Source: Ephemeroptericola cinctiostellae
GTDB lineage: Bacteria; Pseudomonadota; Gammaproteobacteria; Burkholderiales; Burkholderiaceae
Length of the DNA stretch: 64,000 nucleotides
Direction: 5' to 3'
Assembly: GCF_003339525.1 (NCBI RefSeq)
Contig: NZ_CP031124.1
Coordinates: 1,240,001 to 1,304,000 of the forward strand
The position numbers were made by a program, and so were the translations under genes. Of this stretch, positions 12,240 through 25,407 are shown one piece after another (position 1 is the first letter of the stretch; each line of letters begins with the position of its first letter). The notes beneath the pieces were generated by a model. That model had not been told where the DNA came from, ran no database searches, and was given only the letters and a program-made list of their open reading frames with translations.

Positions 12240-12660
12240 TTAAAAATAAACGATTGAAGGGTAGGCTTAAATGTGAAATAGAAAGTCAATTTGCATCTGT
12301 TTGATATACTTATATTTTAAATAAAATATGTTTTTTATGTATACATCCGTGTAATATATATCCTTAATTGTTTGCAATCGTGATTTTGTTGCATTATAAT
12401 TCGTCATAATTGTTGAATAGTACTAAATTAAACTCTCGTTTAATCTTAAAAATATCGTTTTTAAGTAGCTATTTTTACATTTTAAGTAAAAATCAACTAT
12501 GTGTTTTATTTTATAAAACAAAGTAAAGATTGATTTTTCGTGTTTCTGATAATTAAATTACAATTTGTCATCTGTTTGTATGCTGTTGTGTGTGCTATTT
12601 ATTGTGGTTTTACAGAGCTTATACACTGGCTTGCTGGGTTGTCCATGTTTCATTCATAAA
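12240..12660 (+). promoter_or_regulatory. Very AT-rich upstream region of the giant adhesin gene
   Basis: About 420 bp with long A/T tracts (for example TATATATCC, GCATTATAATTCG) between the divergent trp leader and the adhesin start. No gene is seen in it. TATAAT-like boxes are abundant, so no single promoter is assigned. Such tracts are typical of promoters of surface and xenogeneically silenced genes; binding by an H-NS/MvaT-type protein is only inference. The last part, 12565-12660, is an open frame upstream of the adhesin start that encodes no recognisable signal. Confidence 0.4.
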
Positions 12661-12672
12661 AAAGGTATAGAG

Positions 12673-15600
12673 ATGAATAAGTCATATCGATCGATTTATA
12701 ACGAAGAGCTAGGTGCGTGGGTTGCAGTTGCAGAAAACGTACCCGCCAAAGGAAAAAAAGGTAAAGCAGGTGGCTTGGTTATGGCCGCTGCGGTGATTGC
12801 AAATGCGGCTGGTGCAGTGGCACATGCGCAGGTTGTGGTTGTCGGTACCGACACTTCGCTTGAGGGTGGAGCCACAGCCAGTGCGAATGGTGGGGTTGGG
12901 GAAACAACGAATTCTGTTGCGATTGGATCATATGCGACGGCCAATGCAGGCTCATCAATCGCGATTGGTTATAAGGCTTATGCCGTAACAAGTGGTGCAG
13001 TCAATGGCAAATACCCAGTGTCTATCGCAATTGGTTGGTCTGCTTCTGCAACAGCCGGGGATGCATTGGCTTTTGGTACAAATAACATTGCCGCTGGGGT
13101 GAACTCCAGTTCCTATGGTAACCAGATTAAAACATCAGGGGCAAACGCTATCGCCATTGAAGGGTTGACTGATGGTGTATGGGGAGCTGCGGGTACCACT
13201 GTTGAGGTGATTGACGCTGCATCGACTTCAGGTGTTGCTGTGGGTAACTATGCGACGATTAAGGGTTCAGTGGATGCCATATCCATTGGTACAAATGCCA
13301 GCATCGCTTCAGGTGCGACCAATGCGACCGCTTTGGGTAAAAATGCAAACGTTGCAACGGGTGCGACAGGTGGCATTGCGTTTGGTACCGCTGCCAATGT
13401 GAGTGCGAATGCGATCAATGCTGTGGCCATCGGTAACTCAGCCACTGCAAAAGGTGCTTACACTGTTGCAGTGGGTAATGCTGCGTTGGCGGGCGGCACA
13501 GACAATGGTGTTGCTGTCGGTAACAGTGCAACAGCGGCAGGTGTTGATTCTGTGGCTGTGGGTAGTAAAAACTATGCCGCAGGTGCAAATGCAACCGTTG
13601 TGGGTAATCAAGTCAAAGCATCGGGTGGGAATTCAATTGCCATTGCGGGTCTGTCAGGTTCCTCGGTGGTTGAGCTCATTGATGCGACTTCTGATTCTGC
13701 CATCGCGATTGGTAATATGGCGAAAGTGACAACGGCCGTAAATGGTATTGCCTTGGGTACAAGTGCAACCGTGGGTGCCGCTGATAATGTGGCAATTGGC
13801 TCGGGCTCTACTGCCTTGACATCAACTTCTAAAGTGACCAGTGGGACAGTCGGCACGGTGACATATGGTACTTTTGCCAATGGCACAACAAGTGCGACAC
13901 GTGTGTTTGCTGTTGGTTCAGCAGCAGATACGCGTCAACTACAATTTGTGTCAGCTGGTAACATCACATCGACTTCTACGGATGGTATCAACGGCAGTCA
14001 ATTGTATGCAGCCTTAAGCGTGACTCAAAGCAGCATTGCTTCATTGTCAACGGGCACTTCAACTGGATTGAGTGCCAGCAACAGCGCGGTGGCGTCTTTG
14101 TCAAGTTCAACCTCCAGTGGCTTGAGTTCTGCTGACTCGGTTATAGCATCGTTGTCAACGAGTACCTCAACAGGGCTGAGTGCAACCAACAGCGCTGTGG
14201 CGTCATTGTCATCGTTAACAGGTAGCACGGTTGCCTCGTTGTCGACATTGACGGGTAGCGTAGTGGCTTCATTGTCAACCAGTACTTCAACAGGTTTGAG
14301 CACAACGAACAGTGCAGTGGCCTCATTGTCAAGCGTGACTGGCAGTTCAATTGCATCGTTGTCGACGGCCATTTCAACAACAACATCAACTGTTTTGAGC
14401 ACAGCCAATAGCACGATTGCATCGTTGTCAACATTGACGGGCAGCGTGGTGGCTTCGTTGTCGACTTCAGCTTCAACAGGTTTGAGCACAACCAACAGTG
14501 CAGTGGCGTCATTGTCATCGTTAACCGGCAGCACAGTTGCATCGTTGTCAACGGTGGTATCTTCTATTACCTCAACGACTTTGAGCAGCGCCAACAGCAC
14601 GATTGCATCGTTGTCAACATTGACGGGCAGCGTGGTGGCTTCGTTGTCGACTTCAGCTTCAACAGGTTTGAGCACAACCAACAGTGCAGTGGCGTCATTG
14701 TCATCGTTAACCGGCAGCACAGTTGCATCGTTGTCAACGGTGGTGTCTTCTATTACCTCAACGACTTTGAGCAGCGCCAACAGCACGATTGCATCGTTGT
14801 CCACATTGACGGGTAGCGTGGTGGCTTCGTTGTCGACTTCAACTTCAACAGGTTTGAGCACAACCAACAGTGCCGTGGCGTCATTGTCATCGTTAACAGG
14901 CAGCACAGTTGCATCGTTGTCAACGGTGGTGTCTTCGATCACATCGACCACTTTGAGCAGCGCCAACAGCACGATTGCATCGTTGTCAACATTGACGGGC
15001 AGCGTGGTGGCTTCGTTGTCGACTTCAACTTCAACAGGTTTGAGCACAACCAACAGTGCAGTGGCGTCATTGTCATCGTTAACAGGCAGCACAGTTGCAT
15101 CGTTGTCTACTGTGGTGTCTTCTATTACCTCAACGACTTTGAGCAGCGCCAACAGCACGATTGCATCATTGTCAACGGTAACGGGCAGCGCGATTGCCTC
15201 GTTGTCGACATTGACGGGTAGTGTGGTGGCTTCGTTGTCGACTTCAACTTCAACAGGTTTGAGCACAACCAACAGTGCAGTGGCGTCATTGTCATCGTTA
15301 ACAGGCAGCACAGTTGCATCGTTGTCAACGGTGGTGTCTTCGATCACATCGACTACTTTGAGCAGTGCCAACAGCACGATTGCTTCATTGTCAACCGTAA
15401 CAGGCAGCGCGATTGCCTCGTTGTCGACATTGACGGGTAGTGTGGTGGCTTCATTGTCAACTTCAGCTTCAACAGGTTTGAGCACAACCAACAGCGCCGT
15501 GGCATCGTTGTCAACGGCGGTGTCTTCTATTACCTCAACGACCTTGAGCAGCGCCAACAGCACAATTGCTTCATTGTCAACCGTAACAGGCAGCGCGATT

Positions 15601-18600
15601 GCCTCGTTGTCGACATTGACGGGTAGTGTGGTGGCTTCATTGTCAACTTCAGCTTCAACAGGTTTGAGCACAACCAACAGCGCCGTGGCATCGTTGTCAA
15701 CGGCGGTGTCTTCTATTACCTCAACGACCTTGAGCAGCGCCAACAGCACAATTGCTTCATTGTCAACGGTGACGGGCAGCGCTATTGCATCGTTGTCTAC
15801 ATTGACGGGTAGCGTGGTGGCTTCGTTGTCGACTTCAGCTTCAACAGGTTTGAGCACAACCAACAGCGCGGTTGCATCATTGTCAACTGCGGTGTCTTCG
15901 ATCACGTCGAGCACTTTGAGCAGCGCCAACAGCACGATTGCTTCATTGTCAACGGTAACGGGCAGCGCGATTGCATCGTTGTCTACATTGACGGGTAGCG
16001 TGGTGGCTTCGTTGTCGACTTCAGCTTCAACAGGTTTGAGCACAACCAACAGCGCCGTGGCGTCACTGTCAAGCGTGACGGGTAGTTCAATTGCATCGTT
16101 GTCAACGGCCATTTCAACAACGTCATCGACTGTTTTGAGCACAGCCAACAGCGCGATTGCATCGTTGTCAACATTGACTTCAACTGGTTTCAGTACGGTT
16201 GATTCAACAGTGGCTTCGTTGTCGACTTCAACTTCAACAGGTTTGAGCACAACCAACAGCGCGGTTGCATCGTTGTCAACTGCAGTGTCTTCGATCACAT
16301 CAACGACTTTGAGCAGCGCCAACAGCACGATTGCTTCATTGTCAACGGTGACGGGCAGCGCGATTGCATCGTTGTCTACATTGACGGGTAGCGTGGTGGC
16401 TTCGTTGTCGACTTCAACTTCAACAGGTTTGAGCACAACCAACAGCGCCGTGGCGTCACTGTCAAGCGTGACGGGTAGTTCAATTGCATCGTTGTCAACG
16501 GCCATTTCAACAACGTCATCGACTGTTTTGAGCACAGCCAACAGCGCGATTGCATCGTTGTCAACATTGACTTCAACTGGTTTCAGTACGGTTGATTCAA
16601 CAGTGGCTTCGTTGTCGACTTCCACTTCAACAGGTTTGAGCACAACCAACAGCGCTGTGGCGTCATTGTCAAGCGTGACTGGCAGCTCAATTGCATCGTT
16701 GTCAACCGTTGTTTCAACGGCATCATCGACCACTTTGAGTAGCGTCAACAGCACGATTGCCTCGTTGTCAACGGTGACGGGTAGTGCGATTGCATCGTTG
16801 TCAACATTGACCGGTAGCGTGGTGGCTTCGTTGTCGACTTCAGCTTCAACAGGTTTGAGCACAACCAACAGCGCCGTGGCTTCGTTGTCAACAGCAGTGT
16901 CAACGGCATCATCGACGATCCTGAGCACAGCCAACAGCACGATTGCTTCGTTGTCCACATCGACTTCAACTGGTTTCAGTACGGTTGATTCAACAGTGGC
17001 TTCGTTGTCGACTGTGACGGGCAGTTCGATTGCTTCATTGTCAACGAGCACTTCAACAGGTTTAAGCACAACCAACAGCGCTGTGGCTTCGTTGTCAACA
17101 GCAGTGTCAACGGCATCATCGACCATCCTGAGCACAGCCAACAGCACGATTGCCTCGTTGTCTACATTGACTTCAACTGGTTTCAGCACAGTGGACTCAA
17201 CAGTGGCTTCGTTGTCAACGAGTACTTCAACAGGCTTAAGCACAACCAACAGTGCTGTGGCTTCGTTATCAACCGTGACAGGTAGTTCAATTGCATCGTT
17301 GTCAACAGCAGTGTCAACGGCATCATCGACGATCCTGAGCACAGCCAACAGCACGATTGCTTCGTTGTCCACATCGACTTCAACTGGTTTCAGTACGGTT
17401 GATTCAACAGTGGCTTCGTTGTCGACCGTGACGGGTAGTTCAATTGCATCGTTGTCAACAGCAGTTTCAACGGCGTCATCGACGATCCTGAGCACAGCCA
17501 ACAGCACGATTGCCTCGTTGTCTACATTGACTTCAACTGGTTTCAGCACAGTGGACTCAACAGTGGCTTCGTTGTCAACGAGTACTTCAACAGGCTTAAG
17601 CACAACCAACAGTGCTGTGGCTTCGTTATCAACCGTGACAGGTAGTTCAATTGCATCGTTGTCAACAGCAGTGTCAACGGCATCATCGACTGTCTTGAGC
17701 ACTGCCAATAGCACGATTGCTTCGTTGTCCACAGCGACTTCAACTGGTTTCAGCACGGTTGATTCAACAGTGGCTTCGTTGTCGACCGTGACGGGTAGTT
17801 CAATTGCATCGTTGTCAACAGCAGTTTCAACGGCGTCATCGACGATCCTGAGCACAGCCAACAGCACGATTGCCTCGTTGTCTACATTGACTTCAACTGG
17901 TTTCAGCACAGTGGACTCAACAGTGGCTTCGTTGTCAACATCGACTTCAACTGGTTTCAGTACAGTCGATAGTTCGATTGCATCATTGTCAACGGCTGCT
18001 TCAACGGCATCATCGACTGTCTTGAGCACCGCCAATAGCACGATTGCTTCGTTGTCCACAGCGACTTCAACTGGTTTCAGCACGGTTGATTCAACAGTGG
18101 CTTCGTTGTCGACTTCAACTTCGACAGGCTTCAGTACAGTAGATTCAACAGTGGCTTCGTTGTCCACATCGACTTCAACTGGTTTCAGTACAGTCGACAG
18201 CTCGATTGCATCATTGTCAACGGCTGCTTCAACGGCATCATCGACTGTCTTGAGCACCGCCAATAGCACGATTGCTTCGTTGTCCACAGCGACTTCAACT
18301 GGTTTCAGCACGGTTGATTCAACAGTGGCTTCGTTGTCGACGTCAACTTCGACAGGCTTCAGTACAGTAGACTCAACAGTGGCTTCGTTGTCAACATCGA
18401 CTTCAACTGGCTTCAGTACAGTCGACAGCTCGATCGCATCATTGTCAACGGCTGCTTCAACGGCATCATCGACTGTTTTGAGCACCGCCAACAGCACGAT
18501 TGCTTCGTTGTCCACAGCGACTTCAACTGGCTTCAGCACGGTTGATTCAACAGTGGCTTCGTTGTCAACATCGACTTCAACTGGTTTCAGTACAGTCGAT

Positions 18601-21600
18601 AGTTCGATTGCATCATTGTCAACGGCTGCTTCAACGGCATCATCGACTGTCTTGAGCACTGCCAACAGCACGATTGCTTCGTTGTCCACAGCGACTTCAA
18701 CTGGTTTCAGCACGGTTGATTCAACAGTGGCTTCGTTGTCGACGTCAACTTCGACAGGCTTCAGTACAGTAGATTCAACAGTGGCTTCGTTGTCAACATC
18801 GACTTCAACTGGTTTCAGTACAGTCGACAGTTCGATCGCATCATTGTCAACGGCTGCTTCAACGGCATCATCGACTGTCTTGAGCACTGCCAATAGCACG
18901 ATTGCTTCGTTGTCCACAGCGACTTCAACTGGTTTCAGCACGGTTGATTCAACAGTGGCTTCGTTGTCGACGTCAACTTCGACAGGCTTCAGTACAGTAG
19001 ATTCAACAGTGGCTTCGTTGTCAACATCGACTTCAACTGGTTTCAGTACAGTCGACAGTTCGATCGCATCATTGTCAACGGCTGCTTCAACGGCATCATC
19101 GACTGTCTTGAGCACTGCCAATAGCACGATTGCTTCGTTGTCCACAGCGACTTCAACTGGTTTCAGCACGGTTGATTCAACAGTGGCTTCGTTGTCGACG
19201 TCAACTTCGACAGGCTTCAGTACAGTAGATTCAACAGTGGCTTCATTGTCCACATCGACTTCAACTGGTTTCAGTACAGTCGACAGTTCGATCGCATCAT
19301 TGTCAACGGCTGCTTCAACGGCATCATCGACTGTCTTGAGCACCGCCAATAGCACGATTGCTTCGTTGTCCACAGCGACTTCAACTGGTTTCAGCACGGT
19401 TGATTCAACAGTGGCTTCGTTGTCGACGTCAACTTCGACAGGCTTCAGTACAGTAGATTCAACAGTGGCTTCGTTGTCCACATCGACTTCAACTGGTTTC
19501 AGTACAGTCGATAGTTCGATTGCATCATTGTCAACGGCTGCTTCAACGGCATCATCGACTGTCTTGAGCACCGCCAATAGCACGATTGCTTCGTTGTCCA
19601 CAGCGACTTCAACTGGTTTCAGCACGGTTGATTCAACAGTGGCTTCGTTGTCGACGTCAACTTCGACAGGCTTCAGTACAGTAGATTCAACAGTGGCTTC
19701 GTTGTCCACATCGACTTCAACTGGTTTCAGTACAGTCGACAGCTCGATTGCATCATTGTCAACGGCTGCTTCAACGGCATCATCGACTGTCTTGAGCACC
19801 GCCAATAGCACGATTGCTTCGTTGTCCACAGCGACTTCAACTGGTTTCAGCACGGTTGATTCAACAGTGGCTTCGTTGTCGACGTCAACTTCGACAGGCT
19901 TCAGTACAGTAGACTCAACAGTGGCTTCGTTGTCCACATCGACTTCAACTGGTTTCAGTACAGTCGATAGTTCGATTGCATCATTGTCAACGGCTGCTTC
20001 AACGGCATCATCGACTGTCTTGAGCACTGCCAATAGCACGATTGCTTCGTTGTCCACAGCGACTTCAACTGGTTTCAGCACGGTTGATTCAACAGTGGCT
20101 TCGTTGTCGACGTCAACTTCGACAGGCTTCAGTACAGTAGACTCAACAGTGGCTTCGTTGTCCACATCGACTTCAACTGGTTTCAGTACAGTCGATAGTT
20201 CGATTGCATCATTGTCAACGGCTGCTTCAACGGCATCATCGACTGCCTTGAGCACTGCCAATAGCACGATTGCTTCGTTGTCCACAGCGACTTCAACTGG
20301 TTTCAGCACGGTTGATTCAACAGTGGCTTCGTTGTCGACGTCAACTTCGACAGGCTTCAGTACAGTAGACTCAACAGTGGCTTCGTTGTCCACATCGACT
20401 TCAACTGGTTTCAGTACAGTCGATAGTTCGATTGCATCATTGTCAACGGCTGCTTCAACGGCATCATCGACTGTCTTGAGCACCGCCAATAGCACGATTG
20501 CTTCGTTGTCCACAGCGACTTCAACTGGTTTCAGCACGGTTGATTCAACAGTGGCTTCGTTGTCGACGTCAACTTCGACAGGCTTCAGTACAGTAGACTC
20601 AACAGTGGCTTCGTTGTCCACATCGACTTCAACTGGTTTCAGCACGGTTGATTCAACAGTGGCTTCGTTGTCGACGTCAACTTCGACAGGCTTCAGTACA
20701 GTAGATTCAACAGTGGCTTCGTTGTCAACATCGACTTCAACTGGTTTCAGTACAATGGACTCAACAGTGGCTTCGTTGTCAACATCGACTTCAACTGGTT
20801 TCAGTACAATGGACTCAACAGTGGCTTCGTTGTCGACGTCAACTTCGACTGGCTTCAGTACAGTGGACTCAACAGTGGCCTCGTTGTCAACATCGACTTC
20901 GGCTGGTTTCAGTACAGTAGACTCAACAGTGGCATCGTTGTCAACAGTGACAGGCAGCTCAATCGCTTCATTGTCAACGTCGACTTCGGCTGGTTTCAGC
21001 ACGGTTGATTCAACAGTGGCTTCGTTGTCAACGTCGACTTCGGCTGGCTTCAGCACAGTGGACTCAACAGTGGCTTCGTTATCAACAGCGACAGGCAGTT
21101 CAATCGCATCGTTGTCAACGTCGACTTCAGCTGGCTTCAGCACGGTGGATTCGACAGTGGCTTCATTGTCAACAGTAACAGGCAGTTCAATCGCATCGTT
21201 GTCAACGTCGACTTCAGCTGGTTTCAGTACGGTGGATTCGACAGTGGCTTCATTGTCAACTTCGACTTCAGCTGGTTTCAGTACAGTGGACTCAACAGTG
21301 GCTTCGTTGTCAACATCGACTTCGGCTGGTTTCAGTACGGTGGATTCGACAGTAGCTTCGTTGTCAACATCGACTTCAGCTGGCTTCAGCACAGTGGATT
21401 CAACAGTGGCTTCATTGTCAACAGTAACAGGCAGCTCGATCGCATCGTTGTCAACATCGACTTCGGCTGGTTTCAGCACGGTTGATTCAACAGTGGCTTC
21501 ATTGTCAACGTCGACTTCAGCTGGTTTCAGTACGGTGGATTCGACAGTGGCTTCATTGTCAACAGTAACAGCCAGCTCGATCGCTTCGTTGTCAACGTCG

Positions 21601-24486
21601 ACTTCGGCTGGCTTCAGCACAGTGGATTCAACAGTGGCTTCGTTGTCAACATCGACTTCGGCTGGTTTCAGCACGGTTGATTCAACAGTGGCTTCATTGT
21701 CAACGTCGACTTCGGCTGGTTTCAGTACAGTAGACTCAACAGTGGCATCGTTGTCAACAGTGACAGGCAGCTCAATCGCTTCATTGTCAACGTCGACTTC
21801 GGCTGGCTTCAGTACGGTTGACTCAACAGTGGCATCGTTGTCAACAGTGACAGGCAGCTCAATCGCTTCGTTGTCAACATCGACTTCAGCTGGTTTCAGT
21901 ACAGTTGATTCAACAGTGGCTTCGTTGTCAACATCGACTTCGGCTGGTTTCAGCACGCTTGATTCAACAGTGGCTTCATTGTCAACGTCGACTTCAGCTG
22001 GTTTCAGCACGCTTGATTCAACAGTGGCATCGTTGTCAACAGTGACAGGCAGCTCAATCGCTTCATTGTCAACGTCGACTTCGGCTGGCTTCAGTACGGT
22101 TGACTCAACAGTGGCTTCGTTGTCAACAGTGACAGGCAGCTCAATCGCTTCGTTGTCAACGTCGACTTCAGCTGGTTTCAGCACGCTTGATTCAACAGTG
22201 GCTTCATTGTCAACGTCGACTTCAGCTGGTTTCAGCACAGTGGATTCAACAGTGGCTTCATTGTCAACAGTGACAGGTAGCTCAATCGCTTCATTGTCAA
22301 CGTCGACTTCGGCTGGCTTCAGTACGCTTGACTCAACAGTGGCGTCGTTGTCAACAGCGACAGGCAGCTCAATCGCTTCGTTGTCAACGTCGACATCGGC
22401 TGGCTTCAGTACGCTTGACTCAACAGTGGCTTCGTTGTCAACAGTGACAGGTAGCTCAATCGCTTCGTTGTCAACATCGACTTCGGCTGGTTTCAGTACA
22501 GTTGATTCAACAGTGGCTTCGTTGTCAACGTCGACTTCGACCGGCTTCAGTACAGTGGACTCAACAGTGGCCTCGTTGTCAACTTCGACTTCGGCTGGTT
22601 TCAGTACAGTAGACTCAACAGTGGCATCGTTGTCAACAGTGACAGGCAGCTCGATCGCTTCATTGTCAACATCGACTTCAGCTGGTTTCAGTACGCTTGA
22701 CTCAACAGTGGCGTCGTTGTCAACAGTGACAGGCAGCTCAATCGCTTCGTTGTCAACGTCAACTTCGACTGGTTTCAGCACACTTGACTCAACAGTGGCT
22801 TCGTTGTCAACAGTAACAGGCAGCTCGATCGCTTCGTTGTCGACTTCGACTTCAGCTGGTTTCAGTACGCTTGACTCAACAGTGGCATCGTTGTCAACAG
22901 TGACAGGCAGCTCGATTGCTTCGTTGTCAACATTGACCTCAACAAGCTTTATGTATGTGAACAGTGCTGTGGCGTCTTTGTCAACGTCAACATCGACGGG
23001 CTTTAGCTCGACGAACAGTGCGGTGGCTTCGTTGTCAACTTCGACTTCGGCTGGATTCAGCACTGTTGATTCGACTGTGGCTTCATTGTCTACAGCGACT
23101 TCAACGGCGATCAGTTCGACGAACAGTGCGGTGTCTTCATTGTCAACATCGACTTCGGCAGGCTTCAGTACAGTTGATTCAACGGTGGCTTCGTTGTCAA
23201 CATCGACTTCGGCTGGTTTCAGCACGGTTGATTCAACAGTGGCTTCATTGTCAACGTCGACTTCGGCGGGCTTCAGTACGGTAGACAGTTCGATTGCTTC
23301 GTTGTCGACTTCGACTTCGACTGGTTTCAGCACGGTGAATAGTGCGGTGTCTTCGTTGTCTACGGCGACTTCAACGGCGATCAGTTCGACGAACAGTGCG
23401 GTGTCTTCGTTGTCAACATCGACTTCAACGGGCTTTAGCACGGTGGATTCAACGGTGGCTTCGTTGTCGACTTCAACGTCAACAGGGTTGAGCACGTTGG
23501 GTAGTGCGATTGCTTCGATTTCATCGTCATTCAGCAGCTCAGGCAGCGCGGTGGCTTCGTTGTCAACGTTGACTTCAACGGGCTTTAGTACGACCAACAG
23601 CGCGGTGGCTTCGTTGTCAACTTTGACTTCGACGGGTCTTAGCACGACCAACAGTGCGGTGGCTTCGTTGTCCACTTTGACTTCGACAGGTTTGAGTACG
23701 ACCAACAGCGCGGTGGCTTCATTGTCAACGACGACGTCAAGTGGTTTGAGCTCGGTCAACAGCGCGGTGGCTTCGTTGTCAACCGTGGTGACCAAAGGTT
23801 CGAAATACTTCCAGGCGAACTCAACTGAGGCGGGTGCACAGGCCAATGGCAATAACTCGATCGCTATCGGTCCAAATTCTGTGGCCAATGGCGATAACTC
23901 AACCGCGATGGGCAATGGGGCTGTGACAACGACCAATGCGACCAATTCGTTGGCAATGGGTACGAGTGCGACAGCTTCAGCTGCCAACTCGGTGGCTTTG
24001 GGGTCGAATTCGAATGTTTCTGCGAACAATTCGGTGGCCTTGGGTGCCAATTCGGTGGCCGATGGTACAAGCTTGACTAACGCAGCTTATAACCCAGGCG
24101 GCTCGATTGCAGGGGCAACACCTGTGGGTGAGGTTTCAGTTGGTTCCGCAGGTGCTGAACGTCGAATCACCAATGTTGCCGCAGGTTCTGCTGATACCGA
24201 TGCGGTGAATGTGAGCCAGTTGAAAGCGTTGAAATCGAGTGTCAATACCGATATCAAGGAGCTCAAAGGCGGTATTGCAGCAGCATTGGCACTTGAGTCT
24301 GCCCCATCGGTGGCTGGCAAGTTCACCACTTACATGGGTGTTGGGCATTACGATGGTCAGACTGCAATTGGTATCTCGGGTCGTAAGACTTCAGACAACG
24401 GCCGTTGGAGTTTGTCGGGTGGCGTCACAGCTTCTCAACAAGGTAAGATCGGTGCTCGTATTGGTTTCACGAAAGTATGGGATTAA
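12673..24486 (+). CDS. Giant trimeric autotransporter adhesin (YadA/AtaA type)
   Basis: A 3937-residue type Vc secreted adhesin. Start 12673 is chosen for its RBS (AAAGG) and because it opens an ESPR-type extended signal peptide (MNKSYRSIYNEELGAWVAVA, cleavage near AHA-Q, residue 52). Residues ~70-420 are YadA-like head repeats (SVAIG.YATA / AVAIGNSATA type). A neck follows (~420-446, DGINGSQLYAA). The stalk, ~450-3705, is built almost wholly of [VI]ASLS-headed modules. A second short head (~3716-3815, NSIAIGPNSVANGDNS) precedes the neck RRITNVAAGSADTDAVNVSQ (~3830-3850) and the YadA anchor (~3865-3937), which forms the trimeric beta-barrel. The last residues are KVWD, not a terminal aromatic. 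Its size rivals AtaA of Acinetobacter sp. Tol5 (3630 residues). A TpgA-like gene follows. The ligand is unknown. Confidence 0.95.
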   Translation: MNKSYRSIYNEELGAWVAVAENVPAKGKKGKAGGLVMAAAVIANAAGAVAHAQVVVVGTDTSLEGGATASANGGVGETTNSVAIGSYATANAGSSIAIGYKAYAVTSGAVNGKYPVSIAIGWSASATAGDALAFGTNNIAAGVNSSSYGNQIKTSGANAIAIEGLTDGVWGAAGTTVEVIDAASTSGVAVGNYATIKGSVDAISIGTNASIASGATNATALGKNANVATGATGGIAFGTAANVSANAINAVAIGNSATAKGAYTVAVGNAALAGGTDNGVAVGNSATAAGVDSVAVGSKNYAAGANATVVGNQVKASGGNSIAIAGLSGSSVVELIDATSDSAIAIGNMAKVTTAVNGIALGTSATVGAADNVAIGSGSTALTSTSKVTSGTVGTVTYGTFANGTTSATRVFAVGSAADTRQLQFVSAGNITSTSTDGINGSQLYAALSVTQSSIASLSTGTSTGLSASNSAVASLSSSTSSGLSSADSVIASLSTSTSTGLSATNSAVASLSSLTGSTVASLSTLTGSVVASLSTSTSTGLSTTNSAVASLSSVTGSSIASLSTAISTTTSTVLSTANSTIASLSTLTGSVVASLSTSASTGLSTTNSAVASLSSLTGSTVASLSTVVSSITSTTLSSANSTIASLSTLTGSVVASLSTSASTGLSTTNSAVASLSSLTGSTVASLSTVVSSITSTTLSSANSTIASLSTLTGSVVASLSTSTSTGLSTTNSAVASLSSLTGSTVASLSTVVSSITSTTLSSANSTIASLSTLTGSVVASLSTSTSTGLSTTNSAVASLSSLTGSTVASLSTVVSSITSTTLSSANSTIASLSTVTGSAIASLSTLTGSVVASLSTSTSTGLSTTNSAVASLSSLTGSTVASLSTVVSSITSTTLSSANSTIASLSTVTGSAIASLSTLTGSVVASLSTSASTGLSTTNSAVASLSTAVSSITSTTLSSANSTIASLSTVTGSAIASLSTLTGSVVASLSTSASTGLSTTNSAVASLSTAVSSITSTTLSSANSTIASLSTVTGSAIASLSTLTGSVVASLSTSASTGLSTTNSAVASLSTAVSSITSSTLSSANSTIASLSTVTGSAIASLSTLTGSVVASLSTSASTGLSTTNSAVASLSSVTGSSIASLSTAISTTSSTVLSTANSAIASLSTLTSTGFSTVDSTVASLSTSTSTGLSTTNSAVASLSTAVSSITSTTLSSANSTIASLSTVTGSAIASLSTLTGSVVASLSTSTSTGLSTTNSAVASLSSVTGSSIASLSTAISTTSSTVLSTANSAIASLSTLTSTGFSTVDSTVASLSTSTSTGLSTTNSAVASLSSVTGSSIASLSTVVSTASSTTLSSVNSTIASLSTVTGSAIASLSTLTGSVVASLSTSASTGLSTTNSAVASLSTAVSTASSTILSTANSTIASLSTSTSTGFSTVDSTVASLSTVTGSSIASLSTSTSTGLSTTNSAVASLSTAVSTASSTILSTANSTIASLSTLTSTGFSTVDSTVASLSTSTSTGLSTTNSAVASLSTVTGSSIASLSTAVSTASSTILSTANSTIASLSTSTSTGFSTVDSTVASLSTVTGSSIASLSTAVSTASSTILSTANSTIASLSTLTSTGFSTVDSTVASLSTSTSTGLSTTNSAVASLSTVTGSSIASLSTAVSTASSTVLSTANSTIASLSTATSTGFSTVDSTVASLSTVTGSSIASLSTAVSTASSTILSTANSTIASLSTLTSTGFSTVDSTVASLSTSTSTGFSTVDSSIASLSTAASTASSTVLSTANSTIASLSTATSTGFSTVDSTVASLSTSTSTGFSTVDSTVASLSTSTSTGFSTVDSSIASLSTAASTASSTVLSTANSTIASLSTATSTGFSTVDSTVASLSTSTSTGFSTVDSTVASLSTSTSTGFSTVDSSIASLSTAASTASSTVLSTANSTIASLSTATSTGFSTVDSTVASLSTSTSTGFSTVDSSIASLSTAASTASSTVLSTANSTIASLSTATSTGFSTVDSTVASLSTSTSTGFSTVDSTVASLSTSTSTGFSTVDSSIASLSTAASTASSTVLSTANSTIASLSTATSTGFSTVDSTVASLSTSTSTGFSTVDSTVASLSTSTSTGFSTVDSSIASLSTAASTASSTVLSTANSTIASLSTATSTGFSTVDSTVASLSTSTSTGFSTVDSTVASLSTSTSTGFSTVDSSIASLSTAASTASSTVLSTANSTIASLSTATSTGFSTVDSTVASLSTSTSTGFSTVDSTVASLSTSTSTGFSTVDSSIASLSTAASTASSTVLSTANSTIASLSTATSTGFSTVDSTVASLSTSTSTGFSTVDSTVASLSTSTSTGFSTVDSSIASLSTAASTASSTVLSTANSTIASLSTATSTGFSTVDSTVASLSTSTSTGFSTVDSTVASLSTSTSTGFSTVDSSIASLSTAASTASSTVLSTANSTIASLSTATSTGFSTVDSTVASLSTSTSTGFSTVDSTVASLSTSTSTGFSTVDSSIASLSTAASTASSTALSTANSTIASLSTATSTGFSTVDSTVASLSTSTSTGFSTVDSTVASLSTSTSTGFSTVDSSIASLSTAASTASSTVLSTANSTIASLSTATSTGFSTVDSTVASLSTSTSTGFSTVDSTVASLSTSTSTGFSTVDSTVASLSTSTSTGFSTVDSTVASLSTSTSTGFSTMDSTVASLSTSTSTGFSTMDSTVASLSTSTSTGFSTVDSTVASLSTSTSAGFSTVDSTVASLSTVTGSSIASLSTSTSAGFSTVDSTVASLSTSTSAGFSTVDSTVASLSTATGSSIASLSTSTSAGFSTVDSTVASLSTVTGSSIASLSTSTSAGFSTVDSTVASLSTSTSAGFSTVDSTVASLSTSTSAGFSTVDSTVASLSTSTSAGFSTVDSTVASLSTVTGSSIASLSTSTSAGFSTVDSTVASLSTSTSAGFSTVDSTVASLSTVTASSIASLSTSTSAGFSTVDSTVASLSTSTSAGFSTVDSTVASLSTSTSAGFSTVDSTVASLSTVTGSSIASLSTSTSAGFSTVDSTVASLSTVTGSSIASLSTSTSAGFSTVDSTVASLSTSTSAGFSTLDSTVASLSTSTSAGFSTLDSTVASLSTVTGSSIASLSTSTSAGFSTVDSTVASLSTVTGSSIASLSTSTSAGFSTLDSTVASLSTSTSAGFSTVDSTVASLSTVTGSSIASLSTSTSAGFSTLDSTVASLSTATGSSIASLSTSTSAGFSTLDSTVASLSTVTGSSIASLSTSTSAGFSTVDSTVASLSTSTSTGFSTVDSTVASLSTSTSAGFSTVDSTVASLSTVTGSSIASLSTSTSAGFSTLDSTVASLSTVTGSSIASLSTSTSTGFSTLDSTVASLSTVTGSSIASLSTSTSAGFSTLDSTVASLSTVTGSSIASLSTLTSTSFMYVNSAVASLSTSTSTGFSSTNSAVASLSTSTSAGFSTVDSTVASLSTATSTAISSTNSAVSSLSTSTSAGFSTVDSTVASLSTSTSAGFSTVDSTVASLSTSTSAGFSTVDSSIASLSTSTSTGFSTVNSAVSSLSTATSTAISSTNSAVSSLSTSTSTGFSTVDSTVASLSTSTSTGLSTLGSAIASISSSFSSSGSAVASLSTLTSTGFSTTNSAVASLSTLTSTGLSTTNSAVASLSTLTSTGLSTTNSAVASLSTTTSSGLSSVNSAVASLSTVVTKGSKYFQANSTEAGAQANGNNSIAIGPNSVANGDNSTAMGNGAVTTTNATNSLAMGTSATASAANSVALGSNSNVSANNSVALGANSVADGTSLTNAAYNPGGSIAGATPVGEVSVGSAGAERRITNVAAGSADTDAVNVSQLKALKSSVNTDIKELKGGIAAALALESAPSVAGKFTTYMGVGHYDGQTAIGISGRKTSDNGRWSLSGGVTASQQGKIGARIGFTKVWD
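14030..23790 (+). repeat. Stalk-coding repeat tract of the adhesin (33-, 54-, 66-bp modules)
   Basis: Nearly 9.8 kb of in-frame repeats. Successive [VI]ASL motifs are 11, 18 or 22 codons apart (33, 54, 66 bp). In 14.4-15.2 kb they combine 11+18+11+22 into a 186-bp unit (anchors at 14413, 14599, 14785, 14971, 15157); an extra 11-mer then makes 219 bp. 17.96-20.69 kb is dominated by a 228-bp unit. 20.7-22.9 kb alternates 18- and 11-residue modules with TSAGFSTVDS. 22.95-23.79 kb is more degenerate. Synonymous codons vary between copies. Confidence 0.93.
17960..20690 (+). repeat. 228-bp higher-order tandem repeat within the adhesin gene
   Basis: The anchor TCGACTG occurs at 18013, 18241, 18469, 18643, 18871, 19099, 19327, 19555, 19783, 20011, 20239 and 20467. 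Ten of the eleven intervals are exactly 228 bp, and one (18469 to 18643) is 174 bp, short by one 54-bp module. Each unit encodes 22+18+18+18 = 76 residues. Copies differ by only a few, mostly synonymous, bases. Confidence 0.93.
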
Positions 24487-24556: not shown

Positions 24557-24612
24557 ACCCATGACCGATACCTTGGCAGATGGCTGCTCAATAGATAGAA
24601 TAAGGATTGATG

Positions 24613-25407
24613 ATGAAAAAATACATGACATTGTTTACAGGAATAGCAGTGGTGCTGGCTTTGGGCAGTACCGCTGCCTTTGCGCAACAAGCTGAAACAA
24701 CTGTGAAATTTCCAGAATTAAAATCGACCTATTTAAAAACAGGTGATTTTGTGAATTTGGAAAATTTGAAAAAAATTGCTGCGGGTTTACATAAAGACCA
24801 AGTGCGTTTGTTGCTGGGTAACCCGCATTTTAGTGAGGGCATTGGCAATCCACATGTGTGGGATTATGCGTTTAATTTTTATACAGGACAAATGGGTGGC
24901 GATTATGTGACGTGCCAATACCAAGTTCAATATGATAAAGATTACCACATCAATGCAACTTACTGGAAAGACAAACAATGCGAAGGTTTCTTGCATGAAG
25001 CACCACCACCCGCACCACGCGTGGCTGAGCCGATCACCTTGTCTGCCGATGGTTTGTTTGCGTTTGGCCGTTCGGATTTGAATAGTTTGCAAACCAAAGG
25101 GCGTGAAAATTTACGTCAATTGGCGGGTCAAATCAATTCAGGTTTGAGCAAACTGACTTCGGTCTCAATTGTGGGCTACAGTGATCGAATCGGTTTACCT
25201 AAGACCAACTTGGCCTTGTCTCGTGCACGTGCAGTCACAGTTAAAAAGTATTTGGTACAACAAGGTGTGCCTGCGAATTTGATCACGACCAGCGGCATGG
25301 GACCTGCAAATCCTGTTGTGAATTGCCCTGGCCCAGCATCGCCACGCACAATTGCTTGTTTGATGCCAAATCGCCGCATTGAAGTGACATTGAATGGTGA
25401 AAAATAA
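24613..25407 (+). CDS. TpgA-like periplasmic protein (BamE-like + OmpA-like domains)
   Basis: A 264-residue exported protein. The signal peptide is MKKYMTLFTGIAVVLALGST with AFAQQ at the cleavage site. Residues ~30-115 resemble the SmpA/OmlA (BamE) fold (GLHKDQVRLLLGNPHFSEG, VWDYAFNFY). Residues ~140-262 are an OmpA_C peptidoglycan-binding domain (VSIVGYSDRIG, NLALSRARAVTVKKYL, GVPANLITTSGMG, NRRIEVTL). In Acinetobacter sp. Tol5, TpgA has this layout, is encoded next to the giant adhesin AtaA and ties its anchor to peptidoglycan. The same role is inferred here from architecture and position. Start 24613 lies 6 bases after AAGGA; ATG 24610 is possible. Confidence 0.82.
   Translation: MKKYMTLFTGIAVVLALGSTAAFAQQAETTVKFPELKSTYLKTGDFVNLENLKKIAAGLHKDQVRLLLGNPHFSEGIGNPHVWDYAFNFYTGQMGGDYVTCQYQVQYDKDYHINATYWKDKQCEGFLHEAPPPAPRVAEPITLSADGLFAFGRSDLNSLQTKGRENLRQLAGQINSGLSKLTSVSIVGYSDRIGLPKTNLALSRARAVTVKKYLVQQGVPANLITTSGMGPANPVVNCPGPASPRTIACLMPNRRIEVTLNGEK

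Follow-up and report, generated by a model that had tools for sequence, protein, structure and literature searches.

A predicted giant trimeric autotransporter adhesin with a nearly charge-free SLST-repeat stalk built from modules of 11, 18 and 22 residues

The 64-kb stretch of DNA analysed here (the window) carries a gene for a protein of 3937 aa on its forward strand (12673–24486, +). The surrounding frame is open from 12553 to 24486 (+), and the start was placed at the ATG of MNKSYRS, where the extended signal peptide region (ESPR, PF13018) begins. The ESPR covers aa 1–39 (12673–12789, +; E 3.5e-10 and 3.5e-11) and is followed by an N-terminal YadA-like head of beta-roll repeats (12823–13902, +; five PF05658 stretches, approximate limits set by eye), the neck-to-stalk transition GSQLYAALSVTQSS (13993–14034, +), a stalk of 3255 residues (14029–23793, +), a second, membrane-proximal YadA-like head (23842–24162, +; four PF05658 stretches, approximate limits), a neck/coiled-coil domain matching YadA_stalk (PF05662; 24163–24285, +; E 1.5e-14) and the outer-membrane domain YadA_anchor (PF03895; 24313–24480, +; match over the cut-off). 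Because an ESPR, YadA-like heads, YadA_stalk and the YadA anchor are all present, the product can be assigned by its domain content to the trimeric autotransporter adhesins (TAAs; type Vc, YadA-like), as the earlier note on this DNA had proposed, and would presumably form a homotrimer. An AF2 model of 13453–14439 (mean pLDDT 73) shows strands in the head over 13453–13869 and a helix that begins at the neck motif GSQLYAAL (aa 441), with pLDDT values of 81 and 86 in the first two ten-residue blocks from the neck transition and under 50 over much of 223–296. The best PDB match of the modelled head was 3s6l, the BoaA head of Burkholderia pseudomallei (Foldseek, E 1.1e-5). A coiled-coil stalk after the neck is likewise indicated by PF05662, by the AF2 helix starting at the neck, and by the spacing rule and face segregation described below; all AF2 folds are of monomers. 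The Pfam coiled-coil families gave no match in the 688 stalk residues searched (14137–16200), and a weak Pfam apolipoprotein match was rejected (20 bits against a cut-off of 90). Rfam gave no match within the 64-kb window, and plasmid records gave none.

Downstream of the adhesin gene, at 24607–25407 (+), lies a gene for a TpgA-like, putatively periplasmic partner with BamE and OmpA domains. The protein aligned with 10–267 of the 268 positions of the TpgA family model NF047726 (E 3.1e-50), and its score of 170.8 bits is below the family cut-off of 350, which sets it apart from TpgA proper. The available text of two reports describes Acinetobacter TpgA as interacting with both peptidoglycan and the TAA (PMC13082670, PMC8151025). 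The protein encoded here probably tethers the anchor to peptidoglycan.

The genome consists of one contig of 2.72 Mb, in a family that also includes genomes of 6–9 Mb. An assignment to Oxalobacter was discarded after none of the six genomes of the genus reached the cut-off of the oxalyl-CoA decarboxylase model. A PF03895 profile search of it found seven anchors, and eight TAA-like genes were found, all with SLST stalks; their proteins or frames sum to 21319 aa, equivalent to 2.35% of the genome. A TpgA-like gene lies directly downstream in seven of the eight, the exception being L027. The NF047726 scores of these neighbours range from 102 to 170 bits, all under the 350-bit cut-off, and the BamE and OmpA domains were checked for the window's copy only. 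The same model gave partial, weaker matches at eight other places in the genome (up to 64.5 bits) and matches below the cut-off in 3 of 14 control genomes.

SLST stalks also occur in relatives from Burkholderia, Paraburkholderia and Variovorax, and 17 named loci with such relatives were compared. The highest stalk identity among them, 75% in the best segment, was found for L012 from an uncultured Burkholderiaceae MAG. With a 152-aa stalk probe (E 1e-10 or better), matches were obtained in four of the six genomes of the genus and in 21 of the 200 genomes of the family sample, the window genome being counted in both. A protein search with the stalk region returned none of 1716 scored candidates at 1e-10, which is no evidence of absence, as composition-bias correction probably explains the empty result. 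Among the best 120 of 3020 C-terminal relatives (E 1e-10 or better), none had at least 10 SLST spacings, and together with 120 listed head relatives 7 of 240 had at least 3; the SLST stalk is therefore uncommon among the giant TAAs listed.

The stalk of the window protein contains 194 module heads of the form [VI][AS]S[LI]S between 14035 and 23767. The 193 spacings between them confirm the module lengths of the earlier note, namely 18 (111 spacings), 11 (50) and 22 (31) residues, and add one that it had not mentioned, a lone 14-residue module, IASISSSFSSSGSA, at 23509–23550 (+). An identical or near-identical module is located near the stalk end in the paralogue L030 and in L012, and its second part is visible in L028. 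Of the 192 modules with 11, 18 or 22 residues, 181 have S-L-S-T at positions 3–6 and the remaining 11 have S-L-S-S there. Multiple SLST-headed serine-rich repeats and two blocks of YadA-like head repeats, the features of a SLST-repeat adhesin, are thus both found in this protein.

Lys, Arg, His, Glu, Gln, Pro, Cys and Trp are absent from the whole 3255-residue run, as had been claimed. It is composed of S (1089), T (743), A (377), L (284), V (272), G (160), I (99), F (86), D (82), N (59), M (3) and Y (1), and Ser and Thr together make up 56% of the stalk modules. The longest stretch without D, E, K, R and H extends over 688 residues (14137–16200, +), in good agreement with the approximately 690 given before. 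All 82 Asp stand at position 16 of 18-residue modules (n = 111), the other 29 having N (28) or G (1) there. D, E, K and R account for 2.5% of the module residues in the window gene and for at most about 4.4% in the 17 relative loci; the near-absence of charge is not special to the window protein but common to its paralogues and the relative loci measured. Trypsin and Glu-C sites are absent from the stalk, and it may be protease-resistant; with 284 Leu, 86 Phe and 82 Asp, sites for chymotrypsin, elastase and Asp-N do exist.

The modules also distinguish this stalk from others. The 14-residue, two-heptad modules of the Burkholderia kin, a trait outside the published definition of SLST-repeat adhesins, account for 1 of 193 spacings here versus 330 of 824 in the 17 relative loci. 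A hendecad (11/3) does not run throughout, as 11-residue modules account for 50 and 22-residue modules for 31 of the 193 spacings, 18/5 being dominant and the mean being 3.625 residues per turn. Of the right-handed pentadecad (15/4) known from YadA there was no trace, with 15-residue spacings numbering 0 of 817 for the window gene together with six paralogues and 0 of 824 in the relative loci. The earlier description of a stalk unlike the usual heptad and 15-residue types was therefore borne out, since 15-residue spacings are absent from the window stalk and a 14-residue spacing occurs once. One 15-residue spacing occurs in the more distant P0121.

For a comparison across loci, spacings of up to 40 residues between heads of the pattern [VI].SLS were counted and compared with the form 7m+11n, in which 7 and 11 residues stand for two and three helical turns. 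Among the spacings of the window gene and of six paralogues, 814 of 817 had this form, as did all 824 in the 17 relative loci, with only 15 of the values from 1 to 40 fitting it. In each of the three exceptions the spacing is 17 residues; L027 has two of them and L025 has one. Thirteen of the 14 distinct spacing values fit, which corresponds to a hypergeometric probability of 6e-7 for values of 5–40 treated as independent; the spacings are in fact not independent, because modules are copied from one another. In the loci L051–L058 (frames with at least 8 heads), 942 of 974 spacings fit, and 27 of the 32 exceptions come from two sister-species loci, L053 (30 and 34 residues; 21 of 91 spacings) and L055 (19 and 24 residues; 6 of 48). 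Spacings of 30, 34 and 19 residues would correspond to right-handed inserts with 3.75–3.80 residues per turn. In L053, which belongs to a sister species of the same genus and whose sequence contains masked letters, the 30-residue spacings (17) and the 34-residue spacings (4) contain V-S-T-A-like runs with a 4-residue step, and these inserts would be strongly right-handed (3.75–3.78 residues per turn).

Read as helical turns, each SLST module would be an integer number of them, with 11, 18, 22 and 14 residues corresponding to 3, 5, 6 and 4 turns, respectively. The available text of PMC4786415 counts 18 residues per 5 turns among the accepted periodicities of coiled coils and gives 3.63 residues per turn for an undistorted helix. 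The mean pitch of the window stalk is 3.6246 (3244 residues over 895 turns). The length of one supercoil turn depends strongly on the reference, being approximately 2430 residues for 3.63, 530 for 3.60 and 860 for 3.64, and because straightness hinges on this value the pitch should be read no finer than near straight, averaged. The earlier note had suggested a straight to slightly right-handed coiled coil. The first part holds for the mean (3.625 versus 3.63), while right-handedness would apply at most to the N-terminal third, the thirds having pitches of 3.642, 3.623 and 3.610 from the N- to the C-terminus. If 3.63 is right, the supercoil would be slightly right-handed towards the head and slightly left-handed towards the membrane, giving a stalk that is straight on average and right-handed at most locally. 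As the pitch shifts along the stalk, one fixed pitch fits the whole poorly: the resultant was 0.351 at 3.615 and 0.140 at 3.6246, where shuffles reach 0.07, compared with 0.57–0.83 in 100-residue windows of the stalk. With a rise of 0.148–0.150 nm per residue, the length of the stalk would come to about 480–487 nm.

Whether the straightness of such a coiled coil is selected can be argued both ways. The mean pitch of 3.62 might be an accident of which modules multiplied, with straightness unselected and local twist in either direction, a view that departs from our preferred explanation solely in what it makes of the pitch. It would account for the differences among the stalk thirds and among the paralogues (L025 3.612, L026 3.613, L027 3.648, L028 3.617, L029 3.571, L030 3.621, L051 3.613), and it suits a stalk whose middle is dominated by tandem duplication and relatives with 14-residue modules at 3.50–3.61. 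However, seven of the eight TAA-like genes of this genome lie at 3.61–3.65 despite different module mixes, and none of those seven has more than one 14-residue module. The pitches of the 17 relative loci (3.50–3.61, 14 of them 3.559–3.580) are lower because 14-residue modules are used there. We consider the chances of an accidental pitch to be even.

That the stalk is an alpha-helical coiled coil at all is well supported. When residues were assigned module-phased angles, V, I, L, F and M made up 623 of 1006 inward, 116 of 1007 flanking and 1 of 1231 outward positions. Because the module heads set the phases, the V/I of position 1 and the L of position 4 point inward by construction, and the informative part of this analysis is the nearly hydrophobic-free outward face. 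Weighing against a helix, Ser, Thr, Val and Gly all have a low helix propensity, and the inward face contains 19.7% Thr and 10.7% Gly. The periodicity check recommended in the earlier note yielded a hydrophobic (VILFM) DFT peak at 3.614 residues per turn with a power of 20.6, compared with maxima of 3.29, 3.73 and 0.49 in the bands 1.95–2.5, 2.5–3.3 and 3.9–8. AF2 predicted a single helix (2–159) for 160 stalk residues with a 19-row alignment (A2), at a mean pLDDT of 58.4 and a range of 39–58 over five models. In a PDB sequence search, the stalk matched a designed repeat protein only (E 0.0077), and the PDB profile search gave reovirus sigma-1 (E 0.067 and 0.13), a trimeric coiled coil, and a tail tip protein (0.25). 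All of these were treated as chance matches, and neither search found a solved structure that convincingly matches the module family.

A beta-structured or disordered, mucin-like Ser/Thr-rich spacer, perhaps O-glycosylated and without any coiled coil, is the other conceivable fold, and one that we judge improbable. It would be in keeping with the Ser and Thr content of 56%, accompanied by Val and Gly, and with the low AF2 confidence in the stalk. The genome encodes one protein with Wzy_C, a Pfam family common to O-antigen ligases and O-oligosaccharyltransferases; its presence is unspecific, as Wzy_C is also found in 9 of the 14 control genomes. O-glycosylation has been suggested for the SLST protein BCAM2418 in the part of PMC7142374 available to us, and glycosylation would be compatible with a helix. 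Neither a disordered nor a beta spacer explains why module lengths are limited to 7m+11n over 1641 spacings or why the outward face carries a single hydrophobic residue. Moreover, one and the same AF2 model gives strands for the head and a helix for the stalk. The spacing, the faces, the periodicity and the monomer models thus argue for the helical stalk of the earlier note and against a beta structure.

On the opposite strand, a frame of 3341 aa (14025–24050, −) is open over the whole stalk and reads as a V/E/D/A/L-rich repeat. TTA, CTA and TCA are missing altogether from one register (0, 0 and 0 over the stalk), which keeps the frame open, and the frame is best taken as an artefact of codon usage. 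Codon constraint between module copies was discarded as a strand criterion, being undiscriminating (pN/pS 0.22–0.31 sense versus 0.21–0.37 antisense); the coding strand follows from the sense-frame ESPR, heads and anchor on either side of the stalk. We consider it extremely improbable that misassembly or the decay of a repeat array produced this gene and that the open antisense frame is the true coding strand, since the openness of that frame and the similar pN/pS of both strands are set against the flanking sense domains, the codon explanation, and the same kind of in-frame stalk in six other anchor-bearing TAA genes and in relatives from other genera.

At the DNA level, the stalk is a mosaic of tandem units, including units of 87, 141, 186 and 228 bp. 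The 228-bp unit (76 residues) forms an array of 10.4 copies with 95% matches at 18502–20868 (+). A tract of about 1.1 kb at 18046–19145 (+) is 97–100% identical to the paralogue L030, which sits about 0.7 Mb away on the opposite strand; the first 728 bp are exact, and the edges are sharp at 100-bp resolution. In the flanks of the shared tract, identity was 0.23–0.55 (ungapped 100-bp windows), and 2000 random head-phased 228-bp pairs from the stalk averaged 0.467 with a 95th percentile of 0.719. The tract is best read as the outcome of recent recombination or gene conversion. The longest exact matches to the other six loci reach at most 47 bp, with none of at least 30 bp for L028 and L029, and recent exchange is therefore established for one pair only. 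As the modules would all be whole turns, exchange should preserve the coiled-coil register. BoaA and BMA1027 orthologues are described, in the accessible portions of PMC2955633 and PMC4021183, as varying in the number or arrangement of their SLST repeats.

Taken together, we regard it as likely, with some reservation, that the gene encodes a type Vc TAA whose SLST modules, each of whole turns, build an alpha-helical, trimeric coiled-coil stalk that is on average nearly free of supercoiling and approximately 480 nm long. Three chains would cross the outer membrane via the C-terminal anchor, probably tied to peptidoglycan by the TpgA-like protein, and the beta-roll head would be presented for adhesion far from the cell on the very long stalk. 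V/I, L, T, F/L and V/T would point inward and Ser/Thr/Ala outward, and the module mix, at 3.625 residues per turn, would come so close to the pitch of an undistorted helix that the rod averages nearly no supercoil. Because modules of whole turns share the same starting motif, unequal recombination within or between TAA genes could change the length without breaking the core register. A more far-reaching proposal, which we offer tentatively and consider possible, if on the whole rather doubtful, is that the SLST stalk acts as a kit of integer-turn parts: head-to-head recombination would resize or shuffle the fibre in steps of roughly 1.6–3.3 nm with the core intact, heptad pairs would in this genome have largely given way to modules of 11, 18 and 22 residues, bringing the mean pitch to the value of an undistorted helix, the rods would be almost uncharged, free of supercoil and up to about 0.7 µm long, and the eight loci would act as one shared module pool.

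The integer-turn rule turns the serine-rich SLST repeats into a testable structural statement, namely that module length equals whole helical turns. It predicts viable length variants and would explain how giant adhesins could change length by recombination. It also provides a template from nature for long and straight protein rods with almost no charge. Should the fibre truly be straight, it would stand as an extreme case for the theory of coiled coils, one found in nature, with the mean pitch of an undistorted helix over thousands of residues.

The module family itself is already known by sequence and hence not new, contrary to what the earlier note had implied. Serine-rich repeats starting with SLST have been described by sequence, as far as the available texts go, for BoaA/BoaB, BMA1027 and BCAM2418 (PMC2955633, PMC7142374, PMC4021183). 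The earlier note had itself named database homologues already describing the family as the finding that would speak against it, and as to sequence this is the case, since the SLST repeats were described and relatives were found (17 named loci, 21 of 200 family genomes). In the accessible part of PMC2955633, BoaA/BoaB of B. mallei and B. pseudomallei resemble the window gene as TAAs that carry YadA-like AIG head repeats in two sets, SLST repeats and a YadA anchor, but they are shorter, at about 1535–1766 aa versus 3937 aa. The Burkholderia kin of BoaA, which the module comparison covered (L008, L009, L011, L015, L017, L020 and L021), use 14-residue modules freely, in contrast to 1 of 193 here. 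BCAM2418 of Burkholderia cenocepacia is similar in being a long TAA with extensive serine-rich repeats of variable size and a SLST signature, a likeness by published description, and the part of PMC7142374 available gives no fold for the repeats. NadA3, as presented in the available text of PMC6191539, contains 11-residue coiled-coil repeats seen in a crystal structure; these are two single undecads amid heptads, whereas the window stalk has about 193 modules, almost no heptad pairs and nearly no charge. The AtaA/TpgA system of Acinetobacter sp. Tol 5, from what is accessible of PMC13082670 and PMC8151025, likewise pairs a giant TAA with an adjacent gene for a periplasmic, peptidoglycan-associated partner.

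The passenger of the window protein is nearly all one predicted coiled coil. That of AtaA is mixed-domain. AtaA is listed, in the text available, with 3630 aa and about 260 nm, and the roughly 480 nm for the 3937 aa of the window protein would, if true, amount to about 1.7 times its length per residue. For BadA, approximately 240 nm is given in the accessible part of PMC7247746. The open-access literature, with subscription papers mostly outside it and consulted sources available in part, yielded no report of a fold or of the 7m+11n rule for SLST stalks, which is weak evidence. On this basis, three points look new: that the spacings follow an integer-turn rule in several genera, that heptad pairs are nearly lacking in seven of the eight stalks of this genome, and that two adhesin loci show evidence of exchange.

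The other TAA-like loci differ in several respects. L026 (1.524–1.541 Mb) has the largest TAA frame (5675 aa, 282 module heads), and by the same per-residue arithmetic its stalk would measure about 0.7 µm. In L051 (0.774–0.787 Mb), the eighth TAA-like gene, a frame of 3281 aa has a SLST stalk, a second head (by eye), a YadA_stalk match and a downstream TpgA-like gene; its C-terminal part gave no PF03895 match and perhaps holds a divergent anchor. L027 (1.67 Mb) has no YadA-like head ahead of the stalk (by eye) and carries a tail beyond the anchor domain. In the assembly that holds L057 (G047), a SLST-stalk TAA region is broken into several open frames and would be decayed, frameshifted or misassembled.
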